Part shown: positions 543 to 54,400 of the stretch, piece by piece | Layout: every line of letters begins with the position of its first letter | How positions within the stretch are numbered: the stretch's first letter is position 1 | Assembly: GCF_900143055.1 (NCBI RefSeq) | Contig: NZ_FRCW01000004.1 | Coordinates: forward strand, 1 to 64,000 | Reading direction: 5' to 3' | Source of the DNA: Fibrobacter sp. UWR3 | Lineage (GTDB): Bacteria > Fibrobacterota > Fibrobacteria > Fibrobacterales > Fibrobacteraceae | DNA: 64,000 bases | Made by a program: the position numbers and the translations under genes | Notes under the pieces: generated by a model | The model's database searches: none | What the model saw: only the letters and a program-made list of their open reading frames with translations | Told to the model about the DNA's origin: nothing

Positions 543-1994
543 ATGTTCCGTGCAACTACATTGGAGCGCATCCTCCTAGTCCTTTCGGATTTTGTCGCTG
601 TGTCGATTTGCTTCCTTGGCGCGTTCTGGGTGCAGTTCCATAGTGGTTGGATTGTCGACAAGTTCGACCCGACTAAGACATTCGACCAGTACTGGACCAT
701 GGGGCTTGCCCTCAATATCGGTTGGCTCGTGCTGTTTACCTGCGCGGGCCTGTACCGTTCATGGTTGCTCCTTTCGAGAACTCACCAGATTCTGCGTGTA
801 CTTCGTGCCGTAGTCATCGGTGTGGTGCTTATCATCATCGGGCTTTTCGGTACGGAGTTCCTGGGGAAGGTTTTCACGAACCAGCCTCTGAACGAAGGCT
901 ACCTGTATGGCTCCCGATTCCCGTGGATATTTATCTACGGCGGGCTTGCGATGGTGCTTGTGGCCGGTTTCCGCATGTTCATTTACTTCTGCCTGCGTGG
1001 CTTGCTCCGCTTGGGTTATGGCGCGAACAACATCCTGGTGCTCGGCGCGACCGAGGCGGGCCGCAAGGTGGCCGAAGACCTCAAGAACACTCCGGCGCGT
1101 GGCCAGCGGGTGGTGGGCTTTGTGGATGAACGCTACCAGGTCATATCGCACGACTTTGCAGGCTTCCCGGTCTTGGGCAAGTATTCCGACCTTGCCGCCC
1201 TCGTAAAGAAGTACAAGGTTACGGGTATCGTGATTGCGCACGAAAGTTCCTCCCCGCAAGAGATCATGCGCGTGCTTGTGTGGATTTGTGAACTTCCCCT
1301 GCATATCTATATTGTGCCGGAGCTCTACCCGGTGGTGAACGGGCAGTTCAAGGGTAACCTCGTCTATGGGTTTGAACTGCAGGAACTTTTCGCGTTTACC
1401 ATGCCGCCCTGGCAGGTGCGGGTGAAACGCATTATCGACGTGCTGTTTGGCGCGTTTCTTGGTTTTTGCTCCCTGCCGGTTTGCCTGCTAGCGGCTATTG
1501 CCATCAAGTTGGAAGACCACGGACCGGTTTTTTATTCGCAGGAACGCATCGGCCTGTATGGCAAGCCCTTTACGGTCTACAAGTTCCGCACCATGCGTAC
1601 CGATGCCGAAAAGTTCGGCGCGCAGTGGGCAACGAAGGATGACCCGCGCATTACGAAGGTGGGTAAGTTCCTGCGCAAGACCCGTATTGACGAGCTCCCG
1701 CAGATTCTTTGTGTATTGAAGGGCGACATGAGCATGGTAGGCCCGCGCCCTGAACGTGCCGTGTTTATCAGCAAGCTTCGCGAACAGATTCCGTTCTACA
1801 TCAGCCGCCTCAAGATGAAGCCGGGCCTTACGGGCTGGGCGCAGGTGCGTCACCATTACGATACGAGCATCGAGGACGTGCAGATTAAACTACAGTACGA
1901 CATGTATTACTACGAGAACATGAGCTTGCTCTTGGATTTCCAGATTCTCGTGCGGACGGTCTACGTTGTGTTGACCGGTAAAGGAGCGCAGTAA
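543..1994 (+). CDS. Undecaprenyl-phosphate sugar phosphotransferase (WbaP/WcaJ-type)
   Basis: A 483-residue membrane enzyme predicted to transfer a sugar-1-phosphate onto undecaprenyl phosphate, the first step of capsule, exopolysaccharide or O-antigen synthesis. The N-terminal part has several hydrophobic segments. A nucleotide-binding-like region follows around residues 160-200 (NNILVLGATEAGRKVAEDL). The C-terminal third is the bacterial sugar transferase domain, with KFRTMRTDAEKFG, RIDELPQ, SMVGPRPE and KPGLTGWAQVR. Length and order match the PssY/WcaJ family of polyprenyl glycosylphosphotransferases. The sugar cannot be read from sequence. A UDP-glucuronate decarboxylase 2 kb downstream also fits polysaccharide production. 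Confidence 0.92.
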   Translation: MFRATTLERILLVLSDFVAVSICFLGAFWVQFHSGWIVDKFDPTKTFDQYWTMGLALNIGWLVLFTCAGLYRSWLLLSRTHQILRVLRAVVIGVVLIIIGLFGTEFLGKVFTNQPLNEGYLYGSRFPWIFIYGGLAMVLVAGFRMFIYFCLRGLLRLGYGANNILVLGATEAGRKVAEDLKNTPARGQRVVGFVDERYQVISHDFAGFPVLGKYSDLAALVKKYKVTGIVIAHESSSPQEIMRVLVWICELPLHIYIVPELYPVVNGQFKGNLVYGFELQELFAFTMPPWQVRVKRIIDVLFGAFLGFCSLPVCLLAAIAIKLEDHGPVFYSQERIGLYGKPFTVYKFRTMRTDAEKFGAQWATKDDPRITKVGKFLRKTRIDELPQILCVLKGDMSMVGPRPERAVFISKLREQIPFYISRLKMKPGLTGWAQVRHHYDTSIEDVQIKLQYDMYYYENMSLLLDFQILVRTVYVVLTGKGAQ

Positions 1995-2122
1995 AATTCG
2001 GAATTCGGATTTATGAATTAGGAATTAATTTATACTTTCTCATTTCGAACTTCGAATTCTAAATTAACCTTGACCGATCTTTTAATTAACCTTAACTCCG
2101 AATTCCTAATTCCTAATTAACT
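1995..2122. repeat. Heptad-periodic spacer between the sugar transferase and nadC
   Basis: The whole 128-bp gap between the stop codon and the nadC ATG can be written as 18 consecutive 7-bp words plus CT. Similar words recur in register: AATTCGG twice at 1995-2008, then ATTTATG, AATTAGG, AATTAAT; later TTCGAAC, TTCGAAT; finally GAATTCC, TAATTCC, TAATTAA just before CT-ATG. The start half and end half are partly inverted copies (AATTAGGAATTA versus TAATTCCTAATT). No Shine-Dalgarno sequence precedes nadC. Function unknown. Confidence 0.75.
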
Positions 2123-2986
2123 ATGTACGGCGATAACTCGACTCCCAAATTTCCTACCGAAGATGCTCTCACGATGATTCGCCTCGCGCTTGCCGAAGAC
2201 GTGCGCACGGGCGACGTGACCAGCGAATGGACCATCCCTGCCGACCAGAAGCAGCATGCCCGCCTGATTGCAAAAGAAGATGGCGTGCTTGCGGGCCTCC
2301 CGGTGATTGAACTCGTGTTCCAGGAACTCAAGGCAAACGTGAAGGTGACGCTCCACAAGAAAGATGGCGACGTGGTGAAGAAAGGCGACCTGATTGCCGA
2401 AATGGACGGCACGACGCACGAACTCTTGACGGGCGAGCGTACGCTCCTGAACTTTATCCAGCAGCTTTCCGGCGTGGCGACGGTCGCGCATACCTTTCAG
2501 GAAGCCCTGAAGGGCGGGAAAACCAAGGTGCTCGATACCCGCAAGACGGTTCCCGGTTTCCGCACGTTGCAGAAGTACGCCGTTCGCGTGGGTGGCGGTT
2601 CCAACCACCGCATGGGCCTCTTTGACATGGTGCTCGTGAAGGACAACCACATCGCTGCTGCAGGTGGCGTGCTCCAGGCGCTTGAAGTCGTGAAGAAGAA
2701 CAACACGCAGGGCCTGATGGTCGAGATGGAAGTGGAAAACTTCGACCAGCTGCGCGCTCTTTTGAACAAGGGCGTAGACGTCATCATGCTTGACAACATG
2801 AGCAACGAGATGATGGCCGAGGCCCTCAAGATTATCAAGGAAAGCGGTGACAAGTGCCTGGTGGAAGGCTCGGGCAACATGACGCTCGAACGCGCGAAGG
2901 AAATCGCGACGCTCGGCCTCGATTACATCTCTGTCGGTGCGCTCACGCATAGCGTGAAGGCTCTCGACATCTCGATGCGCATTTAG
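2123..2986 (+). CDS. nadC: Nicotinate-nucleotide pyrophosphorylase (carboxylating)
   Basis: The 287-residue enzyme converts quinolinate and PRPP to nicotinate mononucleotide, CO2 and PPi in de novo NAD synthesis. Diagnostic features are LDTRKTVPGFRTLQKYAVR (about residues 139-157), the following GGGSNHRMGLFDMVLVKDNHI loop region, which carries substrate-binding basic residues, and the C-terminal barrel strands with EGSGNM and YISVGALTHS. Length is normal. The ATG directly abuts a heptad-periodic leader with no ribosome-binding site. nadA and nadB are not in the window. coaX follows immediately, so both cofactor genes may be co-transcribed. Confidence 0.95.
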   Translation: MYGDNSTPKFPTEDALTMIRLALAEDVRTGDVTSEWTIPADQKQHARLIAKEDGVLAGLPVIELVFQELKANVKVTLHKKDGDVVKKGDLIAEMDGTTHELLTGERTLLNFIQQLSGVATVAHTFQEALKGGKTKVLDTRKTVPGFRTLQKYAVRVGGGSNHRMGLFDMVLVKDNHIAAAGGVLQALEVVKKNNTQGLMVEMEVENFDQLRALLNKGVDVIMLDNMSNEMMAEALKIIKESGDKCLVEGSGNMTLERAKEIATLGLDYISVGALTHSVKALDISMRI

Positions 2987-3846: not shown

Positions 3847-3853
3847 AATCAAT

Positions 3854-3883
3854 CTTTCGTCTTTCGTCTTTCGTCTTTCGTCT
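3854..3883 (+). repeat. CTTTCGT heptamer tandem repeat abutting a ribosome-binding site
   Basis: Four perfect copies of CTTTCGT (3854-3881) plus CT run straight into AGGAGG, the ribosome-binding site of the gene starting at 3895. The same heptamer, in either orientation, occurs in the nth/cysE gap and upstream of the aminotransferase at 23.3 kb. A change in copy number would alter the leader in 7-bp steps. Confidence 0.8.
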
Positions 3884-3894
3884 AGGAGGCATCA

Positions 3895-5523: not shown

Positions 5524-5590
5524 GTCTGCGCCTCCTTTCGTCTTTCGTCTGTAGCGAGCCGCATTGCGACGCAGCGTACTTTCGTCTAGT
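5524..5590. repeat. nth/cysE gap with CTTTCGT words
   Basis: CTTTCGT occurs twice in tandem at 5534-5547, immediately beside the nth ribosome-binding site, and once more near 5579. On the coding (minus) strand this reads AGACGAAAGACGAAAGGAGG. It is the same heptamer as at 3854 and 23295. Confidence 0.7.
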
Positions 5591-23271: not shown

Positions 23272-23294
23272 AGTGAGCGCAAATATAGAATATT

Positions 23295-23329
23295 AGACGA
23301 AAGACTATAGACGAAAGACGATAGAGTTG
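23295..23329. repeat. AGACGAA heptamer repeat between ffh and the aminotransferase gene
   Basis: Five consecutive 7-bp words: AGACGAA, AGACTAT, AGACGAA, AGACGAT, AGAGTTG. The AGACGAA word is the reverse complement of the TTCGTCT phase of the CTTTCGT repeats at 3854 and 5534. It sits in the short space between the two divergent genes. Confidence 0.75.
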
Positions 23330-23338
23330 CCGGTATAA

Positions 23339-24571
23339 ATGCTAAATTTGTCAGCCATGAAGCCGTTAAGTGAGCGCACAGAGACCTTTACCGATTCCGT
23401 TATCCGCAGAATGACCCGCATTGCGAACGCTTGCGGGGCGATAAACCTTTCGCAGGGGTTCCCGGATTTCGACCCGCCGGAAGCACTGACGAGGCGCTTG
23501 GCAGAAATTGCCCCCGTGGGCCCACACCAGTATGCGATTACGTTTGGTGCGCAGAATTTCCGTGAGGCGCTGAGCGACAAGCAGTTCCATTTTAGCGGAT
23601 TGCGTTACGACCCGCAAACGGAAATCGTCATTACCTGCGGCAGCACCGAGGCGATGATGGCCTCGATGATGTCGGTCTGCAACCCCGGCGACAAGGTCGT
23701 GCTGTTCTCGCCTTTTTATGAGAACTATTCTGCCGACACGATCCTCTGCGGGGCGACTCCTGTCTATGTGCCGCTTTCTCCGGTGGATCTGAGCTTCGAT
23801 GCCGATGTCCTGGAAAGCGCCATGAAACAGCCGGGCGTGAAGGCTCTCGTGCTGTGCAATCCGGCGAACCCGAGCGGGAAGGTCTTTACCCGCGAGGAAC
23901 TTTCGGTAATCGCCTCCCTGGCAGTGAAGTATGACCTGTACGTGATTACGGACGAAGTGTACGAGCATATCATCTACGCGCCTCACCGTCACATGTATAT
24001 ATCGACGCTTCCGGGAATGTTCGAACGCACTATCGAGTGCAGTAGCCTGAGCAAGACTTATTCAATTACTGGCTGGCGTCTCGGATACGTGCTTGCCGCG
24101 GCCCCCGTGATGGACCGCGTCAAGAAAGTCCACGACTTTTTGACGGTCGGCGCCGCCGCCCCGCTCATGGAGGCTGCCGTGACAGCACTCCGCTTCGATG
24201 ATTCGTACTACGCGGGCCTGCAGGCGCACTATACGCACATGAAGCAGCTGTTTACGGATGGTTTGCGGAACCTGGGGCTCCGCTTTTCCGAACCGCAGGG
24301 TGCTTACTTTGTCCTAATTGATATTTCTGAATTTGGCTATGGCGCGCGCAATTCCCGTGCTGGGTCAAACGTTCTTCTTGATGGCGGCAAGTTGCCCGAC
24401 GAACAGTTCTGCATCGACATGGCGCAGAAGGTGGGCGTTGCCGCGGTGCCGGGTTCCAGCTTCTTTCGGGAACCGGTGGACCACCTGGTGCGCCTCCACT
24501 TTGCCAAGAAGGACGAGACCCTCTACGAGGCGCTGAATCGTCTTGAAAATCTTAAAAATCTGAAGCGGTGA
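23339..24571 (+). CDS. PLP-dependent aminotransferase, class I/II
   Basis: A 410-residue fold-type I aminotransferase. Visible motifs are the N-terminal INLSQGFPDFDPPEAL, VLCNPANPSGKVFTREEL, the Asp of ITDEVYEHIIY that contacts the PLP nitrogen, and the PLP lysine in SSLSKTYSITGWRLGYV. The INLSQGFPDF opening is typical of the kynurenine/methionine/glutamine aminotransferase group (YbdL-like), which accepts methionine and aromatic amino acids; the true substrate is undecided. The start could be 23339 or the ATG at 23357 (MKPLSERTETF); neither has a clear ribosome-binding site. Confidence 0.88.
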   Translation: MLNLSAMKPLSERTETFTDSVIRRMTRIANACGAINLSQGFPDFDPPEALTRRLAEIAPVGPHQYAITFGAQNFREALSDKQFHFSGLRYDPQTEIVITCGSTEAMMASMMSVCNPGDKVVLFSPFYENYSADTILCGATPVYVPLSPVDLSFDADVLESAMKQPGVKALVLCNPANPSGKVFTREELSVIASLAVKYDLYVITDEVYEHIIYAPHRHMYISTLPGMFERTIECSSLSKTYSITGWRLGYVLAAAPVMDRVKKVHDFLTVGAAAPLMEAAVTALRFDDSYYAGLQAHYTHMKQLFTDGLRNLGLRFSEPQGAYFVLIDISEFGYGARNSRAGSNVLLDGGKLPDEQFCIDMAQKVGVAAVPGSSFFREPVDHLVRLHFAKKDETLYEALNRLENLKNLKR

Positions 24572-27347: not shown

Positions 27348-27980
27348 GCGCTGATATATACTTGGCTTCGGATATGGCTTGCACGCTCACACGATCACTT
27401 CGTTTAAGTGTTCGCTTAGCGAGCCATATTCCTTCGCCAAGAATAAGCGAGGGCTCCGGCAGAAATTTGTTTATTGCTATGACGCAAAAAACGGGATGTG
27501 TATACCGGGAGGAAAACCTTGTGACTGTTAGTCCCTGCGGTTTTCCTTTAAACTGCAGTTCTCTATTTAGGGGGAGGGATGCTTGAACGAGGTTTATATT
27601 TTGTTGCAGCGCTGATATATACTTGGCTTCGGATATGGCTTGCACGCTCACACGATCACTTCGTTTAAGTGTTCGCTTAGCGAGCCATATTCCTCCGCCA
27701 AAAATATGCGAGGGCTCCGGCGGAAATTTGTTTATTGCTATGACGCAAAAAACGGGATGTGTATATCGGGAGGAAAACCTTGTGACTGTTAGTCCCTGCG
27801 GTTTTCCGTTAAACTGCAGTTCTCTATTTAGGGGGAGGGATGCTTGAACGAGGTTTATATTTTGTTGCAGCGCTGATATATACTTGGCTCCGGATATGGC
27901 TTGCACGCTCACACGATCACTTCGTTTAAGTGTTCGCTTAGCGAGCCATATTCCTTCGCCAAGAATAAGCGAGGACTCCG
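27348..27980. repeat. Tandem 261-bp repeats (two full copies and a partial third)
   Basis: Copies start at 27348, 27609 and 27870. The first two differ at only a few positions. The third follows the first about 105 bp and then diverges at the AAGAATAAGCGAGG segment. Each full copy contains a GGATATGGCT...AGCCATATTCC inverted repeat with a long loop, and a GGAAAACC...GGTTTTCC hairpin with a 20-base loop. The unit is a multiple of three, so frames stay open across it on both strands, but no frame has a credible start or protein family. This is the first part of a 1,039-bp gene-free gap. Confidence 0.85.
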
Positions 27981-28010
27981 GTCCTCTGGGAGAATGCGTT
28001 GCGCCGTTTG

Positions 28011-33771: not shown

Positions 33772-33815
33772 ATTAGATACCTCTGGAGAAAAAGGTAGAA
33801 AAGGGTGCGTAATTT

Positions 33816-33927
33816 GAAATGTGTGGTGTGAGGTGTGTAATGAGAGTTGTTTAATATGAAATGTGGAATGTGTAATGACTAATTCCAAATTCTACATCTC
33901 TCATCTCGCACTCCACATTTTCATTAC
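33816..33927. repeat. Heptad-periodic leader upstream of murD
   Basis: Sixteen consecutive 7-bp words can be read without a slip: GAAATGT, GTGGTGT, GAGGTGT, GTAATGA, GAGTTGT, TTAATAT, GAAATGT, GGAATGT, GTAATGA, CTAATTC, CAAATTC, TACATCT, CTCATCT, CGCACTC, CACATTT, TCATTAC. The second half is built of words that are reverse complements of the first half, so the element is both heptad-periodic and inverted. It makes up much of the 252-bp gap between secG and murD. The rest holds a GGCCCTAGGGGCC palindrome and a CCCGC...GCGG hairpin. Confidence 0.78.
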
Positions 33928-34023
33928 GCCTTCGACGCAATGAAAAATCCACCCCGCAAAAATGCAGGGCGGACTTCAATATGCGGTCAGGTTGGCTAGG
34001 CCCTAGGGGCCAGTCTACCAAAC

Positions 34024-35323: not shown

Positions 35324-38300
35324 CTATTTGTTGTCAAGTTCTAGCAAAAGGGAATCCAAGCGGTGAGTGTAGAGTTCGGCTCCCTCATCGCAAAGGTGCT
35401 GGGAGTCTTCGTTCATTCCATTGGCGTAGTCGTGCAGGCCGCCCTTGTTTTCGTCGAACAGAACAAAATTCGAATATGTTTGTTCCATCTTGACGAATTC
35501 TCCGATTAGAGAATCGGCTATATCGCGGTTCATGCCCAGGTAACCGAACATGGCGGAATTCCTGTATGCAGGAGACTGGGGGAGGATTGTCCCGATGACT
35601 GTTACACCTTGTTTGGCCGACTCTTCGATGATGGTCTTTAGGGAATTCATGGAGCCTGCGAGGATTTCTTGTCCGGGATCGCTAACGGTTGCACCAAAGG
35701 CTGCTCCTGGCCACGATTTTGAGCAAGTAGTGTGCAATTGACCTCTAAGCTCAATAATATGGTCGGTACGATTTGATGACGGGTAGAGTATTCCGTCCTT
35801 CGCAGCCTCGTATAAAGGTGTAAGATCTTCTTCACCTACCCAGTAATTGTGGTTCTTGTCATATACAAATCCAGGATACAACAGGTACTTTGCATTGGCG
35901 TCGTTGTCGGCGAACCAGTTGTCGTCTTTGGCAGACGGTGTTTTCCACCAAAAATCCAAATCGAGAGAAACGACCAGATACTTCATTTTCTTGTAGTGGG
36001 GCATAATGTACTTCATCAGGAGGTCCTTGGACATGTGGATTGTACATGATGCAAGGCCCAAGTTTACCGCAGTGAATTTGCTGCTCAGTTTTGTGGGGTA
36101 AACCGCGTTTAGAGGGCGCGAAGACCCTATGACGACCACATTGGCGGAATCGGCGAACTGCCACAAGAGCTCCATCTTGTATCGTATGATGAAATCCTTG
36201 AACTGCGTGTAGCTGTACACATATATTCCGGCACTGTCGGGGTCCAGAACCAGGCTGTGCTCGCCTGAAGAACTTGTCGGGGCAATCTCGCTTGATGAAC
36301 TCGTTTCTGTAAATTCACTTGAAGAACTGGTTCCAATATCTTCGCTCGAAGAACTTGTTAGGACAAACTCGCTTGAGGAACTGGTTTTGACATTCTCGCT
36401 GGAAGAACTGCTTTCAATATATTCGCTTGAAGAGCTGGTTGGGGCAATCTCGCTGGAAGAACTTGTTTCGACATTCCCGCTTGAAGAACTTGTCTGGACG
36501 CTTGTGCTGGATGATGATGCTTTGGGCGTTTCGCTTGATGAACTGGAAGATTGTTCTGCGACAAGGGGCGTAGAACGTTCTACCCAAAGAACCGGATGCC
36601 ACAATTCATCGCTTTCAACAAGTTCAACAATTTTTTTCGTTTCCATGTCTATCAAGACGATTTTTTTGTGGGATCCGTTTTGGTCCGAAAGTGTTGCCAC
36701 CGCCGCATTCTTGCCGGTCACCCATTCCGTATGGTCATAGGAATAGCCTGCCGGAGCAGCGACTGCGTCTACTAGATTTCCGTTGCTGTTCATTACAAGA
36801 ATTTGTTCGTGAGTGCCGTATTTTTGGCCGACAAACTTTTGACCTGTAGAGCTTCCGAAATCGAGGAATAGAGTCCGGTTCGAACCATCGGTGGCAAGAG
36901 AAACGTTGCAGGCCTGCTCGTTGTTGTACCATACGTCATATTTAACCTTGTCGGGGTCGTCCCAGGTGGCAACGCGCAAGAGCTTCGAGCCTGTTACCGC
37001 AAGCCCCTCTGTTACGCCTCCGTTAAAACTACCCTTTAGCAATAGCCGTGGCGTGCCGAACTCCCCCCCTGCGAAGGGAACAATCCATGTGCTGTACCCT
37101 GCCCAGGTTAAGGAATCCTTGTTGCTTCCGGCGTCAGACACGTACACTAAAGCGGTATCGCCTGGTCCTAACACCCTGAATCGCGGAATGGCGGCGCTTT
37201 CTACGGGGAGCTTTATCTTTTCTGAACATGCGGAATCCAGGCGGCAAACATAAACTTCTGATTTTCCGGATATTCCTTCAATCTTGGTGCTGAATGCGAT
37301 GTAATTGCCATCGGGAGATACGTCAGGGTGGAATGCGCCTGCGTCATCTTCAATTTCAATTGCCCTAGAAGCATTCTTGGTGTAATCGATAAAAGTCAGT
37401 TTGCCGGAAACGTCGTTTCTGAATACGAGCTTCGCCTTTGCCCTTCTGGCGTTTAAAGTTCCCAAAATGGATTCTATGGTAGCCACGATGTTTATCTTGA
37501 CCGTGTTCACGGCTCCAGATGGATCTAGCCAAAGCGGTTTATCGATGGCTCCAAGCACCAACCTGAAACCTACATAGTCGGCGCTGGAATTCATCGCAAT
37601 GGGGTACACATCCCGGCGAGTGTTGATGTTGATATCGTTGGGAGACAATCGGCAGTTTCCGCCCTTTATAATGTTTTCTTTTAAACTGTTGGGAGATGTG
37701 GCTCCAACATAGTTTGTCAGGGTGGTGTCCTTAAAATCCGCAAGCCATCCGTCTACCCATTCGGCGACGTTCCCTGTCATGTTGCAGACTGCATCTGGGT
37801 TTTCTTCAAGTTTGACGTGCGAACTGTCTAATCCGGGGGCGGTGCAAACCTCGTGGGGAATAGATGAAGAATTATCTGCATTCCAGGAATTTTCGACATC
37901 CCAGAATTTTTTTGCGACATACACCCACTCGGCTTCCGTTGGCAGTCGGTAGCCAAAAACCTCGTAGTGAGTGACTAGTCCTTCAAGGAAAACGCAACTT
38001 CCTGTGGGAGTGAAATTGGAATTTGTGTAGGTATATACGGTGTCGAGCCCCTTGCTTTTGCTTAATGCGTTTGCGTACAAAACGGCATCGTAGAAATTGA
38101 CACTGACCTGCGGAAGATTCTTTTCGTTTTCCGGTATATCGCCTCCCATGAGTGCTGCGTACTGTTCTCGGGTCACTTCGGTGCGGCCAATGTAGAAGTC
38201 GTAGTTCAGTTGGACATCCATCGTGACGTTAGACTCGTCAGAGGCGTCCGTCAAAGATACCGTTTTAGGGCCTTTCTGCTTTACAAAACCTTCTATGGAG

Positions 38301-38527
38301 TATTCTGCTTCTTCGGAAGAACTGGACGATTCGGAGGAACAGGATGATTTCTGGTCTTCGTCAATATCTTCCGAAGGGCTGGAGAATTCCTGTTCATCAT
38401 CGATGTCATTGTCGCTTTCACTGGATTTGACATTGGAACAGCTCGTCCAAAGGCCGAATGCCAGCAACCAAAAAAGCAGAAAAAAATTGTCTTTCTCATT
38501 TCTATAAATTGCGCTAGTGTAGGCCAA
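35324..38527 (-). CDS. Large serine-rich lipoprotein with FGE-sulfatase-like and SGNH-like domains (TIGR02171-like); start possibly frameshifted
   Basis: About 1,067 residues as an open frame from a TTG at 38527. Domains: a lipoprotein signal ending FGLWTSC with Cys30; a Ser/Asp/Glu spacer; an FGE-sulfatase-like domain (about 75-330, YIGRTEVTREQYAALMGG, GYRLPTEAEWVYVAKKF, CNMTGNVAEWVDGW); a beta-propeller-like segment (about 360-650, HPDVSPDGNYIAFSTK); nine or ten short Ser4-Glu repeats (about 655-765); and an SGNH/DltD-like C-terminus (VVVIGSSRP ... DSQHLCDEGAELYTHRL). The order resembles the Fibrobacter paralogous lipoprotein family TIGR02171, whose function is unknown. The natural ATG at 38499 is one base out of frame with the body because of a T7 tract. 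Confidence 0.75.
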   Translation of the reverse strand: MAYTSAIYRNEKDNFFLLFWLLAFGLWTSCSNVKSSESDNDIDDEQEFSSPSEDIDEDQKSSCSSESSSSSEEAEYSIEGFVKQKGPKTVSLTDASDESNVTMDVQLNYDFYIGRTEVTREQYAALMGGDIPENEKNLPQVSVNFYDAVLYANALSKSKGLDTVYTYTNSNFTPTGSCVFLEGLVTHYEVFGYRLPTEAEWVYVAKKFWDVENSWNADNSSSIPHEVCTAPGLDSSHVKLEENPDAVCNMTGNVAEWVDGWLADFKDTTLTNYVGATSPNSLKENIIKGGNCRLSPNDININTRRDVYPIAMNSSADYVGFRLVLGAIDKPLWLDPSGAVNTVKINIVATIESILGTLNARRAKAKLVFRNDVSGKLTFIDYTKNASRAIEIEDDAGAFHPDVSPDGNYIAFSTKIEGISGKSEVYVCRLDSACSEKIKLPVESAAIPRFRVLGPGDTALVYVSDAGSNKDSLTWAGYSTWIVPFAGGEFGTPRLLLKGSFNGGVTEGLAVTGSKLLRVATWDDPDKVKYDVWYNNEQACNVSLATDGSNRTLFLDFGSSTGQKFVGQKYGTHEQILVMNSNGNLVDAVAAPAGYSYDHTEWVTGKNAAVATLSDQNGSHKKIVLIDMETKKIVELVESDELWHPVLWVERSTPLVAEQSSSSSSETPKASSSSTSVQTSSSSGNVETSSSSEIAPTSSSSEYIESSSSSENVKTSSSSEFVLTSSSSEDIGTSSSSEFTETSSSSEIAPTSSSGEHSLVLDPDSAGIYVYSYTQFKDFIIRYKMELLWQFADSANVVVIGSSRPLNAVYPTKLSSKFTAVNLGLASCTIHMSKDLLMKYIMPHYKKMKYLVVSLDLDFWWKTPSAKDDNWFADNDANAKYLLYPGFVYDKNHNYWVGEEDLTPLYEAAKDGILYPSSNRTDHIIELRGQLHTTCSKSWPGAAFGATVSDPGQEILAGSMNSLKTIIEESAKQGVTVIGTILPQSPAYRNSAMFGYLGMNRDIADSLIGEFVKMEQTYSNFVLFDENKGGLHDYANGMNEDSQHLCDEGAELYTHRLDSLLLELDNK
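38480..38486 (-). other. T7 homopolymer in the signal-peptide codons
   Basis: Seven A on the plus strand (T7 in the gene). From the ATG at 38499 the sequence reads MRKTIFF and then leaves the frame, stopping after 68 codons. With eight T it would read MRKTIFFLLFWLLAFGLWTSC and join the lipoprotein frame. Confidence 0.8.
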
Positions 38528-42693: not shown

Positions 42694-42812
42694 TTTCATA
42701 CTCCGTAATATAGAATTTATTTGTGTCAAAAAATGACATTACAAAAGAAAAGTGAATTTTTTTTGCAAAATATAATTATCATGAAGCTCCAGTGCATGCC
42801 CCTTCCCGCGAA

Positions 42813-42861
42813 CCATCGTCAATCATCAATCATCAATTATCAATCAACTAATTACTATATT
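42813..42861. repeat. Heptad-periodic leader upstream of the DUF5683-like gene
   Basis: Seven successive 7-bp words: CCATCGT, CAATCAT, CAATCAT, CAATTAT, CAATCAA, CTAATTA, CTATATT, ending 8 bp before the start codon at 42870. There is no Shine-Dalgarno sequence. Confidence 0.75.
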
Positions 42862-42869
42862 TCAAACAA

Positions 42870-45139: not shown

Positions 45140-48100
45140 ATGTTGAAAGGGATGATAAATAAAGTTTACTTGGCCGTGGCCGTGCTCGGCCTGTTTGGCG
45201 GTGCTTTCGGCGCAAAGGTCGCCCCGCTGTATTTCGAAAATCTCGGAAACGAGACTGCGGAAGACTCGGCAGCTCAGCAGCAGTACTGGGAAGACTTGAT
45301 GAAGTACAAGCTGTGGGGAACGCATGGTATTGATGTCTCGTTGGGTAAAGTCTCGATAGGAGATAATGTCGGTTATAACGGAACCGCCGATGGCGAATTC
45401 AGAATGTATGCGAATGACCATCATTTTGGTGGCCCCACTATCGTTGGTGGAGACTTTGTTTTTAGTGCGTCGAGAAATGATACGATATCGATGGGACCTG
45501 TACGTGTCTTGGGAAATTTGCAGGTTAATGGAACATCGGGCAATGTGATGGAAGGCGACTGGTGCGTACAAGGAAAAATAACTCAGCAGTACAATGATGG
45601 AAGCTTGAATTATTGGAACAATATATTGACAGGCGGCATCTATAATGACTCTACAACATTGTCTAAGAAAAAAGGAACGTATGCGCAATGTGATGCTTCC
45701 GTCGCTCCGATGGTCGAACAGACGATGACTGTTCCTATATGGCCGGCACCGGATTCTTGGGAAGGCTTTGAAGCCATCTCGATGAATAGCAACTATAAGG
45801 ATGAGGTTTACTTTATCCACGTCCCGCCTGATTCCGTAGAAACAAATGACTATGGAACCTTTGATAAGTATATTACCAACTTTACGATTGGCGGTAGCAC
45901 CGGAAAGGTCCTGTATGTCTTGATGCCTCCGGGAGGCAAGCTGACACGTATTTATTCAAGGGACGGTTACAACTTTAGCAATTCTGCGAATGACATGAAG
46001 ATTGTGGTGGCCTATGTAGACGAAGGACTCCGTTTTGATAGAACCACCATGAAATGGGACTTTGCTGAACCGCAATCCAAATCTGGATATCCTGACCAGC
46101 CTGCGAATGGTTCTAACTGGGAATTCACGGATGCTGACAAGATAAATGTCATTTCGAACAAGGATTATGCAGGAAACCTCCTGTTCTATACCACGAAAGA
46201 CATCAACTGGAGCTATTGGATTAGCGCCAGTTTCCAGGGCTCCTGGATGTCTACGGGCCTCATCAAGATTGGCGGCCACTTCAAGTTGGCGGGTCAGGTT
46301 ATTGCGAATAACCTGAAGTTCGACTATAATGTTGCGGGCGATTTCCGCTATGTGCCGTTTGACCCACCCATACTGAATATAGACCCGGAAGTGCTCCAGA
46401 ACGGAGCGTTCCCCGAAAACAATGATGATGCGGTAATTCCGATATCGCTCGATACCGTTACTAACACGGCGGTTGATTTTAACTACTGCTTCGATTTAGA
46501 TCTTTCGACGGCAATTCGTGAGGACTTCCAGAAGACGACGAAGGCCCCGTTCCCGATTTGTGAATGGCGCGATACTACCTGGACCTACACTTACGGGGAT
46601 GATGGCATAACCAAGCTAGATAGTACTCGCAACATAACTGTCACGCACGATTCTGGCTATGTGCGAATTGAGGCGGGAAATCTTGTACCGGCCGATTCGC
46701 TTAAGGCTTATCTGAACGTATTTATTGATGGCCTTGCTGAAGGTGAAGAATATTTGCACATGAAGATATTCAACCTTACGGGTGCCGTTCTTCCGGGCAA
46801 CAAGCGCGAAGGCCACTTTACGCTGAAAATTGTCGATGCGAATAACCCGCCGGTGGCTGGCGCTTCGAGCGTTACTGGCAAAGAAGATGTGACGTACACC
46901 TTCAAGAAGAGCGACTTCGCGTACTCTTCGAGCAAGGGCTACGCGGAAACGGGCGTAGTTGTGGCCACGCTCCCGAACAAGGGCACTTTGACTTACAAGG
47001 GCGGCAATGTTACCGCGGGCCAGTTCATTCCGGTGGATTCCATCGGCGACCTCAAGTACACGGGCAAGAAGGATGATTTCGGGACTCCTGCCACCACCTT
47101 CCAGTTCAAGGTTCGTGACGAGATGAACTCCACCTCGGGTGCCGCCATCATGACGGTAAATCTTGCTGCGGTAAACGATCCTCCGAGTGCTACGGCGAGC
47201 GAATTTACGGTTGCCGAAAATTCGGCGGTCGGCGTTAAGGCGACGGGATCGCTTGTCGTGAAGGACGTCGATGACAACGCGTTCGTCTATACCCTGGTGG
47301 GCGGTGCAACTGACATATTCCAGATAAACTCTTCTACGGGCGAGATTTCTGTCAAGAAGGCCGTTCTTGACCACGAGACAAAATCGACATACACGGTGAC
47401 GGTGCATGTGCGCGACATGGCTTCGACGACGACGCTTGCCGATACGCTTTCGTACAATGTCGCTGTGACCATCCGCGTGACGGACGTGAACGAAAAGCCT
47501 ACCATTGTGGATGCGAACCTCAAGGTTCCTGAAATCTGCGATTCCGGTACGGTTGTCGGTCCGGTTGTCGCTACGGAACGTGATACGGCTGCTGCGTTCA
47601 CGAAACTTACTTACACGATTGTCGAGAGCGGCGTGCCGTTCGTGATGGATTCGAACATCGTCAAGGTGAAGAATCCGAGCAAACTGGATTACGAGGCGGA
47701 TTCCGTGCTCACGTTCCATGTGGTGGTGAACGACGGTCAGTACACCGATACTGCGGTCGTGACGGTGAAACTTACCGACGTAAACGAACCGCCCCACTTT
47801 GGGGACAACATCCCTGTGCTTACGGTGGACGAGAACGCTCCTGCCGACACTCATGTTGGTGTTGTGACAGCAAGTGACGTGGATGGTACGGAAAACCTGA
47901 CGTATTCCATTATCGATGAAACGGGTACGTTCAAGATTGTTCCTTCTACGGGCGAAATCAAGGTCATTGCCGATAGCACCATCGACTTTGAAACCAAGTC
48001 CACGTACACGGTGAAGGTGGTGGTGACAGACAAGGATGGCCTTACCGATACGGCTACCGTGACCATCAAGGTGAATGACGTGAACGAGGCTCCCTCTATT

Positions 48101-51076
48101 GAGGATGCTGTGTTCGCGATTGACGAAAATCCCAGGAAGGGCGATTCCGCGGGGGCTGTCATCGCGTCTGACCTCGACACTGCGGCGCAGTTCCGCATAC
48201 TCACTTACGAGATTGTAGAGACGGATGTGCCGTTTGAACTCGATTCCAACATCATTCGGGTTAAAGAACCCGGCAAGCTCGATTACGAGACGGATTCCGT
48301 GTTCACGTTCCATGTGGTTGTTACCGACCAGGACGGCCTTTCTGACACCGCTACCATTACGGTGAACCTCAACGATACGCCGGAACCGCCGAAGTTCGAC
48401 GACAAGACGCCCACGTTCGCTGTTGACGAGAATGTTCCTGCGGGTACATTTGTGGGTGTCGTGACCGCATCTGACGTGGATGACGACGATACGCTCACCT
48501 ACAGCATCGGGGATCCGACCGATACCTTCGTTATTGACGAAGTTACCGGCAAGATCACGGTGAAGGCCGACAGCACCATCGATTACGAGACGAAGAACGA
48601 GTACACGGTGACCGTGGTGGTGACCGACAAGTACGGCTATACCGATACGGCGACGGTGACCATCAAGGTGAATGACGTGAACGAGGCTCCGGATGTTCCG
48701 GACCAGACCATCACGGTGAAGGAAGATGCCGTTGTGGGCAGCGACGTGGGCAAGATTGCGGCTTCCGACCCGGATACCGCGAAGGCGTTCAGCACGCTGA
48801 CCTACGAACTGGTGGAAGATAGCGAACAGTTTAGCGTGAAGGAAGACGGTACGGTCGTGCTCAAGAAGGAACTCGACTACGAAACGGATTCCGTGTACGT
48901 GATCAAGGTGCGCGTGACCGACGGAGACCTTGCTGATACCGCCCTCGTGACGGTGAAGGTGGGCAACGTTGTCGAGAAGACCGAACTGGAAATCACCCGT
49001 GCCGAGACGAAGGATTCCGTGTGGCTCAATCCCGATACGCTGTTCATCAATACGACTGACCTTTGCATCGAGTGGAAGGCCGACGGCAAGCTCATGGGCC
49101 CCGATTGCGACCTCGATCTCCATGAGGGCGAGAACGTCATCGTGAAGGAATACAAGACTCCGGGCAAGGATGTGCCGGGCGTGGATACGCTTGTCGTGTT
49201 CGTGAGCAAGCAGAGCCCTGTCGTGACGGTGACGGCGGTTGTCGACGACGGCAAGAAGCCGAACATCTTCACGATTGTGGAAGAGCAGCAGTCTGCCGAT
49301 ACGGCGTTCTACGTGAATTCCAAGAAGAACGACATTCTGGTGAAGGTGAAGGACCCCGTGTCCGGCGCAAAGGATTCGTTCGTGGTCAAGCTGGACCTCG
49401 ATACGATGAATATCCCTGCGAAGACGTTCACGAGTACGCTCGAGGGCTTTACCGGTGCGGGCCTTACCCTGAACGAGAATCCCGCTTCCGGCGCATCGCA
49501 CACGCCTGTCAACGACGACAAGGTGGCGGTAAGCTACACCGAGGTTGTGAACGGCCAGGAACTCACCGTGACCTACTACACCGACAAGGACGGGAACGTC
49601 ATCAGGAACGAAGATGGCGTGCAGGAGATGACCGTTGCCTACGAGACCGAGGTCAAGGGCAAGAAGGTCGTGATCTCGTACAACGTGGATGCCGTGACGG
49701 GCGAGGTGGTGAAGACCTCCGGAGGCTACGCGAAGCCGGAAGATTCCGCTATCGAGAGCAGCAGCTCGGGCAAGTCTGGCGACAAGTCCAGCAGTTCGGG
49801 CAAGTCCGGTGATAAGGATAGTGGCAAGTCCGCTACGTTCGAAAATGCGGTGGTGTTCACCGTTACCTACGACTACGTGGACGAAGCCGGCAACACGGTT
49901 ACCGTTGCGTACGGAGTGGATGCCGAGGGCAACCTCGTGAAGAACGAGGACGGAAACCTCGGTTACGAAGTGAGCTACACCTACACGAACAAGTACGGCA
50001 ACTCCGCGACTCAGTCCGTGTTCATCGTGCTCGACCAGGTCCCGCCCAAGGTGGAAATCCTCTTCCCGCTGGAAGGCGACGTGATCTACTCGAACTTCGT
50101 GGACGTGAAGTGGACCGTGGATATCGGCGACGGCCGTGGCGCCGTGGTGCAGGATACCCTCATCACTCAGGGCCTCGTGAAGGGCGGCAACGCCATCGTG
50201 CGCTTCTACCGCGACAAGGCGGGCAACGAGGCGAGCGATACGGTGCGCGTCATCATGAAGAACGCGAAGGACGTGGATATCGCTATTGAACAGGCGGTAA
50301 CCGAAATCACCAAGGACAAGGTGGCTGAGTACTACGCGGCGAACGAGCCTGAAGAGGGCGAAACTTTCGCGATTACCATCTACAACTCCAAGACCGAAAA
50401 GGAAGTTGAAACCCTCGTGGGCGGTGGCTATAAGACCAAGACCGGCAGCGGCGACGAACCGTATCCGGGACTTACCGGTCACCTGGGCCCGACTCTCGGT
50501 ATCGAGACGAAGGTGCCGACGATCAACGCGGTGGGTGGCCTTGCGACCCTCGACGACATCGTCGGTTCCGATGGCCTTATTCCGCTTGAGGGCGTAGATG
50601 CCGAGGAAAGCGAGAAGGTTACCGTGGAACAGTACGTACAGCAGTACTGCACCGACGAGTTTGCCGAGAACGTTGGCTCTGACCTCTCGAAGGCGAACCT
50701 CTACTCGACCAAGATGTACGTGAAGATCTGGATCTACACGAGCCTTGGACAGTTCGCTGACTACTACGCGTTCACCCAGGACCTGAACAATCCGGAATAC
50801 GTGAACGACGCTGGCCTCCTGACCCTGTACTTCGAAATGAAGCCGGATAAGGACGGCAATGTGCGTGCCGAGTCGGGTAGGCTCTATGCGACGGGCGCGT
50901 ACGTGTTCCGCACCGAGGTCGAGATGAAGTCGACGCTCCGTTGCTCGTTGCCTCCGTTCGTGAAGACATCTGGCGGAATGGAACCCGAGAAGCCCACGAA
51001 CAAGGTCGGCTCGGCACGTACCGTCAAGGAAGACCTGCTGAAGAGCTTCGGCTACAAGCGCCCCAACATGAAATAA
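45140..51076 (+). CDS. Giant cadherin-repeat surface protein A
   Basis: A 1,978-residue exported protein (signal about residues 8-25, YLAVAVLGLFGGAFG). Residues about 26-410 form a conserved N-domain resembling choice-of-anchor/adhesive domains (SIGDNVGYNGTADGE, GPVRVLGNLQVNG, GGHFKLAGQVIANNL). Residues 410-565 look like a Calx-beta domain. About seven cadherin-type repeats follow (about 568-1280), with Ca-binding DxNE linkers such as VNDVNEAP. A long C-region (about 1282-1978) holds a Ser-Gly-Lys linker near 1535 and ends VKEDLLKSFGYKRP. The N- and C-regions match protein B downstream. It has no LPxTG and no typical type IX sorting domain. It is likely a calcium-stiffened adhesin; function not proven. 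Confidence 0.82.
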   Translation: MLKGMINKVYLAVAVLGLFGGAFGAKVAPLYFENLGNETAEDSAAQQQYWEDLMKYKLWGTHGIDVSLGKVSIGDNVGYNGTADGEFRMYANDHHFGGPTIVGGDFVFSASRNDTISMGPVRVLGNLQVNGTSGNVMEGDWCVQGKITQQYNDGSLNYWNNILTGGIYNDSTTLSKKKGTYAQCDASVAPMVEQTMTVPIWPAPDSWEGFEAISMNSNYKDEVYFIHVPPDSVETNDYGTFDKYITNFTIGGSTGKVLYVLMPPGGKLTRIYSRDGYNFSNSANDMKIVVAYVDEGLRFDRTTMKWDFAEPQSKSGYPDQPANGSNWEFTDADKINVISNKDYAGNLLFYTTKDINWSYWISASFQGSWMSTGLIKIGGHFKLAGQVIANNLKFDYNVAGDFRYVPFDPPILNIDPEVLQNGAFPENNDDAVIPISLDTVTNTAVDFNYCFDLDLSTAIREDFQKTTKAPFPICEWRDTTWTYTYGDDGITKLDSTRNITVTHDSGYVRIEAGNLVPADSLKAYLNVFIDGLAEGEEYLHMKIFNLTGAVLPGNKREGHFTLKIVDANNPPVAGASSVTGKEDVTYTFKKSDFAYSSSKGYAETGVVVATLPNKGTLTYKGGNVTAGQFIPVDSIGDLKYTGKKDDFGTPATTFQFKVRDEMNSTSGAAIMTVNLAAVNDPPSATASEFTVAENSAVGVKATGSLVVKDVDDNAFVYTLVGGATDIFQINSSTGEISVKKAVLDHETKSTYTVTVHVRDMASTTTLADTLSYNVAVTIRVTDVNEKPTIVDANLKVPEICDSGTVVGPVVATERDTAAAFTKLTYTIVESGVPFVMDSNIVKVKNPSKLDYEADSVLTFHVVVNDGQYTDTAVVTVKLTDVNEPPHFGDNIPVLTVDENAPADTHVGVVTASDVDGTENLTYSIIDETGTFKIVPSTGEIKVIADSTIDFETKSTYTVKVVVTDKDGLTDTATVTIKVNDVNEAPSIEDAVFAIDENPRKGDSAGAVIASDLDTAAQFRILTYEIVETDVPFELDSNIIRVKEPGKLDYETDSVFTFHVVVTDQDGLSDTATITVNLNDTPEPPKFDDKTPTFAVDENVPAGTFVGVVTASDVDDDDTLTYSIGDPTDTFVIDEVTGKITVKADSTIDYETKNEYTVTVVVTDKYGYTDTATVTIKVNDVNEAPDVPDQTITVKEDAVVGSDVGKIAASDPDTAKAFSTLTYELVEDSEQFSVKEDGTVVLKKELDYETDSVYVIKVRVTDGDLADTALVTVKVGNVVEKTELEITRAETKDSVWLNPDTLFINTTDLCIEWKADGKLMGPDCDLDLHEGENVIVKEYKTPGKDVPGVDTLVVFVSKQSPVVTVTAVVDDGKKPNIFTIVEEQQSADTAFYVNSKKNDILVKVKDPVSGAKDSFVVKLDLDTMNIPAKTFTSTLEGFTGAGLTLNENPASGASHTPVNDDKVAVSYTEVVNGQELTVTYYTDKDGNVIRNEDGVQEMTVAYETEVKGKKVVISYNVDAVTGEVVKTSGGYAKPEDSAIESSSSGKSGDKSSSSGKSGDKDSGKSATFENAVVFTVTYDYVDEAGNTVTVAYGVDAEGNLVKNEDGNLGYEVSYTYTNKYGNSATQSVFIVLDQVPPKVEILFPLEGDVIYSNFVDVKWTVDIGDGRGAVVQDTLITQGLVKGGNAIVRFYRDKAGNEASDTVRVIMKNAKDVDIAIEQAVTEITKDKVAEYYAANEPEEGETFAITIYNSKTEKEVETLVGGGYKTKTGSGDEPYPGLTGHLGPTLGIETKVPTINAVGGLATLDDIVGSDGLIPLEGVDAEESEKVTVEQYVQQYCTDEFAENVGSDLSKANLYSTKMYVKIWIYTSLGQFADYYAFTQDLNNPEYVNDAGLLTLYFEMKPDKDGNVRAESGRLYATGAYVFRTEVEMKSTLRCSLPPFVKTSGGMEPEKPTNKVGSARTVKEDLLKSFGYKRPNMK

Positions 51077-51096: not shown

Positions 51097-51240
51097 GTCA
51101 TCCCCGCTATAGCCAAATGTCATCCCCGCTATAGCCAAATGTCATCCCCGCGCAGGCGGGGATCTTCTACCACGGCCAACTCTTTCGGCCTTGTGGTTAA
51201 TGTCATCCCCGGCTTGACCGGGGATCTTTTATTATACAGA
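51097..51240. repeat. REP-like GTCATCCCCGC repeats between the two adhesin genes
   Basis: A 22-bp unit (GTCATCCCCGCTATAGCCAAAT) occurs twice in tandem. It is followed by CATCCCCGCGCAGGCGGGGATC, and 60 bp later by CCCCGGCTTGACCGGGGATCTTTTATT. The palindromic versions can terminate transcription of gene A. Related hairpins occur at 4.86 kb, 44.7 kb and 61.16 kb. Confidence 0.75.
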
Positions 51241-51430: not shown

Positions 51431-51449
51431 TTATCCTGTGGTGGATAAT

Positions 51450-54400
51450 ATGAAGAAGAAAATATTTGGTCTTGTAATATTCCTACTTGGAATATGTGCC
51501 CCGTATGCCCTTGCTAAGGCAAGTGTTGCCCCGTTGCAGTTTACGGGAGTGTCTTCGGATTTGCAGCAAGATCGATGGGATTCCCTGATGAAGTATAAAA
51601 TCTGGGGAACCGAGTACATTTCTATTCGAGAGAATGTGTCCATCTCGGATAGTGTCGGTTATAACGGAACTACCGGTGATTTAACATTCGAAAACCAACT
51701 TCACCATCTTGGTGGGCCCACAGTTGTAGGTGGGAATATGACTTACACTAATGGGTCTTACGATACTTTGTCTGCGGGTCCTGTTCGTGTTATGGGCAAT
51801 TTAAGAATTTCGAATCAGGATAACAATAGGATGCAGGGGGACTGGTGTGTAAAGGGTAGCATCACTCAACAATATAATAACGGCTCTCTTCAGGCGTGGG
51901 ACAATCTTGTTACAGGAAAGGTCTATTCAGATGAATACACTCTGCCCAAATCTGGTGGAAGCTATTCTGCTTGTCCTAGTGATGTTCCTCCTTTGGAAGA
52001 TTTGTTTGTGCCCACTTTGCCGACTCCGGGAAGTTGGGGCTCCTCGTTTATGATGACCTCAAATTATCAGGATGAAGTCAAGTATATCCATGTGCCTCCT
52101 GATTCCGTGGAAAGAAATGCTTATGGTACTTATGACATGTACATTACTGAATTCCGTGCAGGGGGCTCAACGGGGAAAAAATTATATGTGGTAATGCCTC
52201 CTGGTGGAAAACTGACTCGTATTTTTTCAAGGGACGGTTTCCTGTTTGATAATTCTGCAAACGATATGAAAATTCAGGTTGTATATGTTGCGGAAGGAAC
52301 AAAGTTTGAAGGTGGCCAATGGGATTTATCAAATACGAATGATTTTTCGTATTTGAGCAATGCTGAATATTCTGGCAATCTCCTTTTCTATACGAGTAAA
52401 GATATCCAGTGGGACTATTGGAAGGACGCCTCGTTCCAGGGAACATGGATGACAACGGGTAAGTTGACTGTTGGTGGTCACTTTAAGTTGGCTGGTCAGC
52501 TTGTTGCAAATCAATTGCAATTCCAGGCGGACATTAAGGGTGATTTCAAGTACATGCCGTTTGATCCGCCTTGGATTGACATCAACCCTGAAGCGCGTAG
52601 CTGGGGAACGGTTTACGAGGGTGTTTCTGGTCCGCAGCCTCTTTCAATTGTCTTGAACGAACCCCCGACTACGGATGTCAGTTTCAAGTACTGCTTTGTT
52701 TTTGATGGTGACCAAGCGAACAACAAGGATACCGATCCGGATTCATTGAATGCTTGGGCTAGCCTTGCTGACGTTGTTACAAGTGCAATTCCGGTGTGTA
52801 ATGGAACGTCCGTATATGAGACGGTTGAATTCCCCAAGGGACACACAGTACCAACGAAAACTGTTACTGTATCTGTCCAGAATGACCTTGTCGAAGAATG
52901 GACTGAATTCTTCAAGATTCGAGTGTTTGATATGGTGGGTGCGGTTCTTCCGAACAAGAAACGTGAAGGTGAGTTCCTTATCGAAATTGATGATGACGAT
53001 AAGGCTCCTAAAGGCAAGGACACCGTTTTTGTTGGTGTTGAAGATACAGACAGCCCGTTCAGCAAGTTCCCTGCTACGACGGGTAATGGTGCTGCTCTGG
53101 ACGAATACGAAGTGAAGATTGAATCGCTGCCGATGAAGAATGGTAACGTGGTCGGTACCTTGACTTACGATGGTGCTGTTGTTGATGCTGCAACCATTGC
53201 CGCCGGTCTCATCATTTCCAATGCGGATCTAGGCAAGCTTGTCTATCATGGCGAAGATAATGCCTTCGGAACGAATTTGGCTTCATTCACCTATAGGGTT
53301 ATCAGCAAAGATGTTTCCGCAGTTGCCGCCAACACGGTAACAATCAATCTGCAGGCTGTGAACGACAAACCGATTGCTCACGATACGGTTTACACGATTA
53401 ACGAAAATGTCGCTGCAGGTACGGCTGCTGCAGGCAAGATTCGCATGGAAGACGTTGACGATACGCAGTTCACTTATGCCTTTGATACGAACGATCCGAA
53501 GTACACCACCGTCAACAGCATATTCGCTATTGATGCAACTACTGGTGCAATTACCGTAAAGAACGCAGGCCTGGACTACGAAGCTCTGAACGCCGATACC
53601 ACGATGGTAATCAAGGTCATTGTGACGGATGCAGCTTCTACGTCTATGCCAGAAGGTGCAGGTAAACTTGCCGATACTTCTATAGTGACTATCAAGGTTG
53701 TCGATGTGAACGAGGCTCCGGTTGTTCGCGACACGGCCTTCACTGTGGATGAAAACGTTCCTGCTGGTACCGAAGTCGGTACATTGGAAGCATCTGATCC
53801 GGATATTAGGAACTCGGATTTTGGAACCCTGTACTTCTCCATTGATGAAAATGCGGATGGCAATCCGGCGACTAATGTTCCGTTTGCAATTGACAACGAT
53901 GGAAAAATTACGGTTACCGCTGATGACGCACTTGATTTCGAAACGAAGCCCACTTGGGTAATTCATGTGACTGTTACTGACGGCTTCATCCCGCAGACGG
54001 TCGAAGTGGTTATCAATCTCAATGACCTGAACGAACCTCCGCATATTGATGACATCTTGGATCAGTATGTCGTTGCGGAACATTCTGCAAATGGCTGGCC
54101 AATTACCTCTCCGGCCATCAAGATTTCTGACCCGGATGTTGGCGATAGCCAGAGCACCCTGAGTGCAAGGATTGAAGGCAGGAACACTTCTGATGCGATG
54201 GCCGAACAGCTTTTTGAAGCTACGGTTGCTGCTGCACAGGATGGTTCCTTGAAGATCATGATTACCGTTAAGGACAGTGCTAAGCTCAACTACGAAACGT
54301 TGCTTGCAAGTGGTGCCGATACGGTAAGTTACGAAATTCGCCTTATCCTTACGGATCGTGAAGGCACCGGGTTCGCCGATACTGCATCCACGACTATTTA

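Follow-up and report, generated by a model that had tools for sequence, protein, structure and literature searches.

What kind of DNA is written in words of a fixed length while the words themselves drift? The question is raised by the 128-bp gap at positions 1995-2122 of the 64,000-nucleotide stretch of Fibrobacter sp. UWR3 DNA that was analyzed as a whole (hereafter, the window), a gap that the first-pass annotation had read over its entire length as a run of 7-bp words, and had attributed either to a copying mechanism with a 7-base step or to selection on spacing in leaders that lack ribosome-binding sites. The period itself stands out clearly: lag-7 identity across the gap is 0.562, compared with 0.298 ± 0.042 in dinucleotide shuffles (z = 6.3, with 0 of 5000 shuffles as high), and no other lag from 1 to 13 rises above 0.40, so that the excess over shuffled sequence that had been set as a test is present at period 7 and at no other period. 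The description of the whole gap as heptads is a slight overstatement: the periodicity is strong over the first 40 nt (0.70) and the last 34 nt (0.63), and marginal in the central 60 nt (2035-2094; 0.43 vs. 0.30, p = 0.026), which alone are unconvincing.

The first-pass annotation missed that the right end of the gap, CCGAATTCCTAATTCCTAATT, is the reverse complement of the word family at the left end (AATTCGG, AATTAGG). Tandem-repeat detection marks a repeat at 1995-2027, within the left arm, and an end-to-end single-strand fold of the gap pairs the left and right arms (z = -2.5 as RNA and -2.6 as DNA). The region is laid out as follows:

543..1994, plus strand: upstream gene, exopolysaccharide polyprenyl glycosylphosphotransferase (TIGR03025, PF02397)
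1995..2029, unstranded: left arm of about five G-type heptads (AATTCGG AATTCGG ATTTATG AATTAGG AATTAAT), abutting the upstream stop codon; lag-7 identity 0.70 over 1995-2034, p < 1/3000
2030..2093, unstranded: centre of the palindromic element, with weak period 7 and with neither an S23 gene nor a GC hairpin
2094..2118, unstranded: right arm of C-type heptads (AACTCCG AATTCCT AATTCCT AATT), reverse-complementary to the word family of the left arm
2123..2986, plus strand: nadC (TIGR00078, profile match), with its ATG directly 3' of the element

When the nadC gap is compared in 30 species, the inverted score is 12 within the gap vs. 7 across species (p = 1e-11) despite differing words, of which at least nine are used at this one site. 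No Rfam family was found at the gap, and a plasmid collection searched with its sequence returned nothing similar.

For the host genome (3.55 Mb), period statistics were obtained from a sample of 1.26 Mb, one third of the whole, in which genes were called with a simple codon-usage finder and each gap received a local score for tandem periodicity; this score was used instead of a lag analysis pooled over all gaps of any length, which is uninformative because long gaps and missed genes dominate it. Period-7 arrays were detected in 40 of 610 intergenic gaps and in none of the genome-wide shuffles; the corresponding counts for periods 4, 5, 6, 8, 10, 11, and 13 are 0, 1, 1, 0, 0, 1, and 1, and period 14 is a harmonic. 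About 55 other Fibrobacter loci, comprising 490 gaps, yielded 64 cases at period 7, two at period 9, and none at the remaining non-harmonic periods. Period-7 segments are rare in genes of the host genome, with five in 989 kb of coding DNA vs. 42 in 121 kb of gaps. Words drift within the arrays and perfect repetition is confined to short stretches, so that the arrays as a whole are not near-perfect repeats of single words.

Changes in array length point to the same unit. Among indels of at least 4 nt in well-aligned orthologous gaps, multiples of 7 make up 18 of the 28 inside arrays vs. 32 of the 215 outside, in counts taken from strict alignments (permissive alignments gave no signal and were judged misaligned); insertions and deletions of 7, 14, 21, 28, and 35 nt are all represented inside arrays. 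The predicted variation of gap lengths by multiples of 7 is thus borne out for the most part inside arrays, and the proposed 7-base copying step is supported, both by these indels and by a period that is restricted to 7 and independent of the word. Polymerase slippage by 7 nt had already been proposed for heptanucleotide repeats (Mrazek et al., 2007, in the form cited in PMC4679880).

Heptad structure had also been claimed for five more gaps of the window. Four gaps carry strong arrays (each p <= 0.001), namely 3847-3894 (TCTTTCG), 23272-23410 (AGACGAA), 33772-34023 (AATGTGN/NCACATT), and 42700-42869 (ATCATCA), and the signals at 502-542 and 5524-5590 are weak. The strong gaps contain the following arrays:

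3853..3883, unstranded: TCTTTCG x 4.4, a single array of C type within gap 3847-3894, with an exact counterpart at L062:14261
23295..23325, unstranded: AGACGAA-type array on the left side of a divergent gap (tandem repeat and lag-7)
33811..33925, unstranded: two-armed AATGTGN/NCACATT palindrome in gap 33772-34023, with the strongest RNA fold of the set (z = -7.6)
42815..42857, unstranded: C-type array ATCATCA beside the right-hand gene of a divergent gap (tandem repeat and lag-7)

At the site of the first of these, the 31-nt TCTTTCG array of the window and of locus L062 is matched in locus L004 by a 31-nt array of other words. The window also holds repeats of other lengths: 2.4 copies of a 261-bp unit, 97% identical (27348-27981), a degenerate 27-bp tandem repeat (36260-36490) within a long minus-strand ORF (35324-38527), and a perfect 22-bp repeat in 2.5 copies (51097-51151) between two very large ORFs of 1978 and 3228 aa (45140-51076 and 51438-61124).

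The inverted pairing seen at the nadC gap is the usual arrangement, with a G-rich, almost C-free word at the left end of a gap and its reverse complement at the right; some arrays are single-armed. The orientation is fixed: 52 Fibrobacter heptad gaps run G-to-C and four run C-to-G, compared with 39 and 48 of the other gaps. Of 61 genomes searched with a G-to-C pattern for the AATGTGN word, 18 contained matches, 63 in all and some of them overlapping, whereas the opposite order was absent from all 61, and the genome-wide pattern for a second word gave three matches vs. none. Both arms belong, by inspection, to the same word family in all 21 classifiable two-armed gaps of the host genome. Moreover, the register is continuous across the centre in 38 of 47 matched AATGTGN palindromes (length 2 modulo 7), and in the palindromes with continuous register an AT anchor occupies 83% of the interior positions. 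At mirrored variable positions of the AATGTGN palindromes there are 4 agreements vs. 14.7 expected by chance, as if perfect palindromes were avoided, in a comparison that was made post hoc and whose anti-matching is weaker in a second small sample. Word and register are thus constrained in both arms, but neither arm is a recent exact copy of the other, since their mirrored variable positions match below chance. This result leads us to reject exact copying of one arm into the other by fold-back; independent telomere-like healing of the two ends is likewise rejected, on the grounds that the arms of a gap share a word family and that the register is often continuous across the centre. As in MITEs, terminal inverted repeats are present, but they are defined by period and not by conserved sequence. 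Fibrobacter gaps also contain short perfect hairpins, with loops of 3-8 nt, in excess over shuffles; GAA/TTC are the commonest 3-nt loops, and such hairpins recall the very stable DNA mini-hairpin GCGAAGC.

The arrays are also dispersed. Unrelated loci with common words form 147 locus pairs within one mismatch, vs. 33 ± 6 expected, and in one pair of loci a 71-nt stretch with a GCGGCnnnGCCGC hairpin at its centre, set between dissimilar 1.5-kb flanks, is 91.5% identical. All seven GCGGCnnnGCCGC hairpins in the sampled gaps fall, by inspection, in heptad gaps (Fisher p = 1e-5). At the same time, individual sites turn over: where the flanks of orthologous gaps are 90-95% identical, the words are kept in 11 comparisons and replaced by other heptad words in 31, and the array is absent in 37 with a shorter gap and 12 with a gap of similar length (all pairwise counts, not independent events). 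Words are therefore replaced between sister species at the same site, and gain and loss of arrays are also seen. Filled and empty versions of one divergent gap show no clear target-site duplication, in a comparison in which the flanks differ strongly. In a divergent promoter region (L006:6901 and its orthologues), a recurring CTATNTTT-like motif, possibly a Fibrobacter promoter element, lies on both sides, with arrays between.

In two long gaps, C1:387438-387891 and C3:41165-41921, both with outlying arms, missed genes were found whose products match the profiles PF05635 ("23S rRNA-intervening sequence protein") and TIGR02436 ("four helix bundle protein"), hereafter S23. All three S23 genes of the host genome, among them those at C8:85231 and C1:387493, are enclosed by a G-type and a C-type array that share a word, and the three words are different. 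In the genus, the 32 best-scoring S23 loci, including the host's three, have an array in at least one flank in 32 of 32 cases and in both flanks in 25 of 32, compared with 2.6% of random windows; because orthologues are included, these loci do not represent 32 independent insertions. The upstream arms are G-rich (29:0) and the downstream arms C-rich (26:1). The median arm is 35 nt long, that is, five heptads, which is also the commonest class (24 of 58), and the lengths of arrays in ordinary gaps peak at 4-5 heptads.

The association extends beyond the genus. In a sample drawn from other Fibrobacterota, Bacteroidota, Lentisphaerae, Latescibacteria, Ignavibacteria, and Gemmatimonadetes, 20 of 29 S23 loci have 7-nt arrays and some of the rest have 8-nt arrays, against a local background of 10%; the inverted score is 17 vs. 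9 (p = 1e-9). Flanks of period 8, often inverted, were observed outside Fibrobacter at L268, L270 (e.g., TGCTAATA), L271, L273, L280, and others. In a small sample of nine S23 genes from cyanobacterial plasmids, ranked by similarity, eight are flanked by arrays on one or both sides, in one case written in 8-nt words, and the ninth has none; examples are GGGAGTA/TACTCCC in Nostoc edaphicum and GGGAACA/TGTTCCC in Nostoc sp. C052. Arm-flanked S23 genes on such plasmids (L274, L276, L279, L280) are wedged into operons, and the operon sites of the plasmid S23 genes are those between cas6 and cas4, between cas10 and a cmr3-family gene, and between the alpha and beta genes of ribonucleotide reductase.

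At the right end of the nadC gap itself, the run AATTCCTAATTCCTAATTAACTATG recurs without a mismatch over 25 nt, ATG included, as the right end of an S23-bearing element (C1:387438-387891, genome G000) that likewise adjoins the ATG of the next gene. The S23 (PF05635) gene is absent from the copy in the window and present in three elements elsewhere in the genome. Given the match of its right end to an S23-bearing element, we propose, with a probability of roughly 0.68, that the nadC gap consists of a small copy, devoid of S23, of a dispersed and S23-bearing palindromic element that resembles the intervening sequences (IVS) of 23S rRNA. The word, the architecture, and the 25-nt identity are the sequence features on which the putative tie to S23 rests. 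Elsewhere, S23-less arrays with words of S23 arms account for 3 of 3 and 1 of 4 cases in two other genomes; the GACGAAA word family was not seen around the three S23 genes of the host. By a coarse measure, S23 protein similarity and word show no correlation among non-orthologous loci (Mantel p = 0.45), and recognition by each S23 protein of its own word finds no support on this measure, in that protein identity does not predict the word.

The element consists of two inverted arms, G-rich on the left and C-rich on the right, both of them degenerate tandem arrays that usually comprise 4-5 heptads. They enclose either the gene for the four-helix-bundle protein S23 (23S_rRNA_IVP) or a short spacer in which a GCGGCnnnGCCGC hairpin is sometimes present. 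We infer that the element is mobile and moves as a unit, with the S23-bearing form as the probable parent or helper, and that the arms lengthen and shorten by 7-nt slippage after arrival. The closest solved chain to the S23 protein is 2GSC (XCC0516), which is the Xanthomonas campestris S23 structure mentioned in PMC4990558, and the S23 crystal structure is a homopentamer (PMC4990558). The moving form could plausibly be the palindromic RNA or single-stranded DNA, possibly folded and recognized by an S23 ring that would bind an arm with about one word for each subunit, an arrangement with which the preference for arms of 4-5 heptads would agree. The TRAP ring, which binds spaced triplets, would offer an analogy for a ring on heptad words. 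To our knowledge, S23 or "four helix bundle" proteins, although present in many phyla and represented by a solved pentameric structure, have no known function, and S23 is not a known transposase.

Several simpler explanations have to be weighed against this one. That the heptads are a chance pattern in A/T-rich DNA is scarcely conceivable: the region is indeed A/T-rich, with short words, and its central 60 nt would not convince alone, but the shuffle results refute this reading both at the gap (none of 5000) and across the genome (40 period-7 gaps observed, none in shuffles). The arrays could instead be ordinary long simple-sequence repeats of the class described by Mrazek et al. (2007), that is, non-coding, functionless, and immobile products of local slippage with a preferred 7-nt step. 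The exclusive period of 7, the intergenic location, and the 7-nt indels all agree with this, and heptanucleotides are the commonest such class, for which 7-nt slippage has been proposed (as cited in PMC4679880); nevertheless, we consider it unlikely as a full account, as it leaves unexplained the occurrence of one word at many unrelated loci, the matched inverted arms with their single orientation (63:0), the 71-nt near-copies with unrelated flanks, and the S23 genes between the arms. Although weakened overall, simple-sequence slippage may still be right for the changes in array length. Marginally less probable again is that the arrays are regulatory DNA or RNA selected site by site, as binding sites, hairpin terminators, or G-poor leaders. 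The C-rich words do face a start codon or a promoter-like motif, strong folds are possible in two-armed gaps (z as low as -7.6), and translational regulation has been proposed for TAACTGA repeats (MacGregor, 2015). Against this, arrays also occur between convergent genes, sister species have wholly changed words or no array at the site, and heptad gaps as a class do not exceed the remaining gaps in structure (median z of -1.7 vs. -1.6, p = 0.89), which rejects an RNA hairpin or terminator as the general role. The suggestion that spacing is selected in leaders devoid of ribosome-binding sites fares no better: arrays are found in convergent and divergent gaps, in one divergent gap upstream of promoter-like motifs, and no clear shortage of motifs resembling ribosome-binding sites is seen near arrays (27% vs. 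33%).

Transposition of a better-known kind, in the form of REP/BIME palindromes moved by a RAYT (Y1) transposase or of MITEs of an ordinary insertion sequence, appears improbable, somewhat more so than the regulatory reading. It would account for short dispersed intergenic palindromes with a GC-rich hairpin and for the association of the GCGGCnnnGCCGC hairpin with heptad gaps (p = 1e-5); however, between copies the arms keep their period and not their sequence, and no match to the Y1 transposase family (PF01797) was found in the genome in a search, with RAYT as the transposase sought, that was positive in control genomes, so that RAYT-driven REP mobility is excluded as far as RAYT defines REP. 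Neither a 7-base copying step nor leader spacing predicts the inverted pairing, the G-to-C orientation, the small set of words, the near-copies at unrelated sites, or the S23 genes.

Heptamer repeats in bacteria have been noted for decades and ascribed to slippage, G-quadruplexes, or regulation. The heptad arms that bracket S23 genes in several phyla suggest an overlooked class of mobile elements. Tentatively, and at somewhat under even odds, we extend this to the proposition that PF05635/S23 proteins belong to an unrecognized, cross-phylum class of mobile elements whose ends are set not by sequence but by period (7 nt, in some cases 8) and by a G-to-C orientation. The arms, remnants, or special cases of such a class would then include the heptamer repeats of Cyanobacteria, Xanthomonas, and Beggiatoaceae, together with the IVS of 23S rRNA. 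If S23 and the heptamer repeats are indeed parts of one element, the target of S23, the writing of arms in fixed steps with free words, and the replacement of words become directly testable; furthermore, a simple annotation rule would follow, and small genes wedged into operons, such as that between cas6 and cas4, would be explained. A literature search that covered few subscription journals found no report linking S23 to heptamers, although an earlier one may exist, and S23 is mentioned in neither of the two heptamer papers considered here (PMC4679880, PMC4692102).

Among known systems, the closest parallel is the IVS of the 23S rRNA genes of Leptospira and Coxiella, in which a PF05635/TIGR02436 protein is likewise encoded within stem-forming complementary borders and for which a sporadic distribution has been described and horizontal transfer proposed (PMC4990558). 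Complementary borders, in the form of inverted arms, are found both in the nadC-gap copy and at the S23 loci. Unlike IVS, which lie in 23S rRNA, the Fibrobacter elements, that of the nadC gap included, sit between protein-coding genes, their borders are 7-nt arrays that vary from copy to copy, and most copies lack S23. With REP and MITE elements the Fibrobacter elements have in common short inverted repeats that are scattered between genes and in some cases accompanied by a GC-rich hairpin; the difference lies in arms that are conserved in period and not in sequence and in a genome without RAYT. The S23 protein of locus L212 is weakly similar to the Avd protein of diversity-generating retroelements (DGR; NF033474, E = 2.5e-6; bAvd PF22296, E = 1.2e-6, both below the cut-off), but S23 scores far higher against its own family.

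The heptamer repeats described previously provide the other side of the comparison. The TAACTGA repeats of marine Beggiatoaceae, Cyanobacteria, and Bacteroidetes are, like the arrays studied here, intergenic 7-nt repeats near start codons, for which carriage by mobile elements or binding of an unknown protein has been suggested; they differ in having one favored word and in being almost all direct, not inverted (PMC4679880). Heptanucleotide long simple-sequence repeats, such as GGGAATC in Xanthomonas and GGGGA(C/T)T in Nostoc, are likewise intergenic tandem heptamers, and in Xanthomonas they also form inverted pairs, with 70-75 convergent pairs per genome (PMC4692102). In contrast to these published repeats, with one main word per genome and no S23 link, Fibrobacter has several drifting word families per genome and a systematic link to S23.
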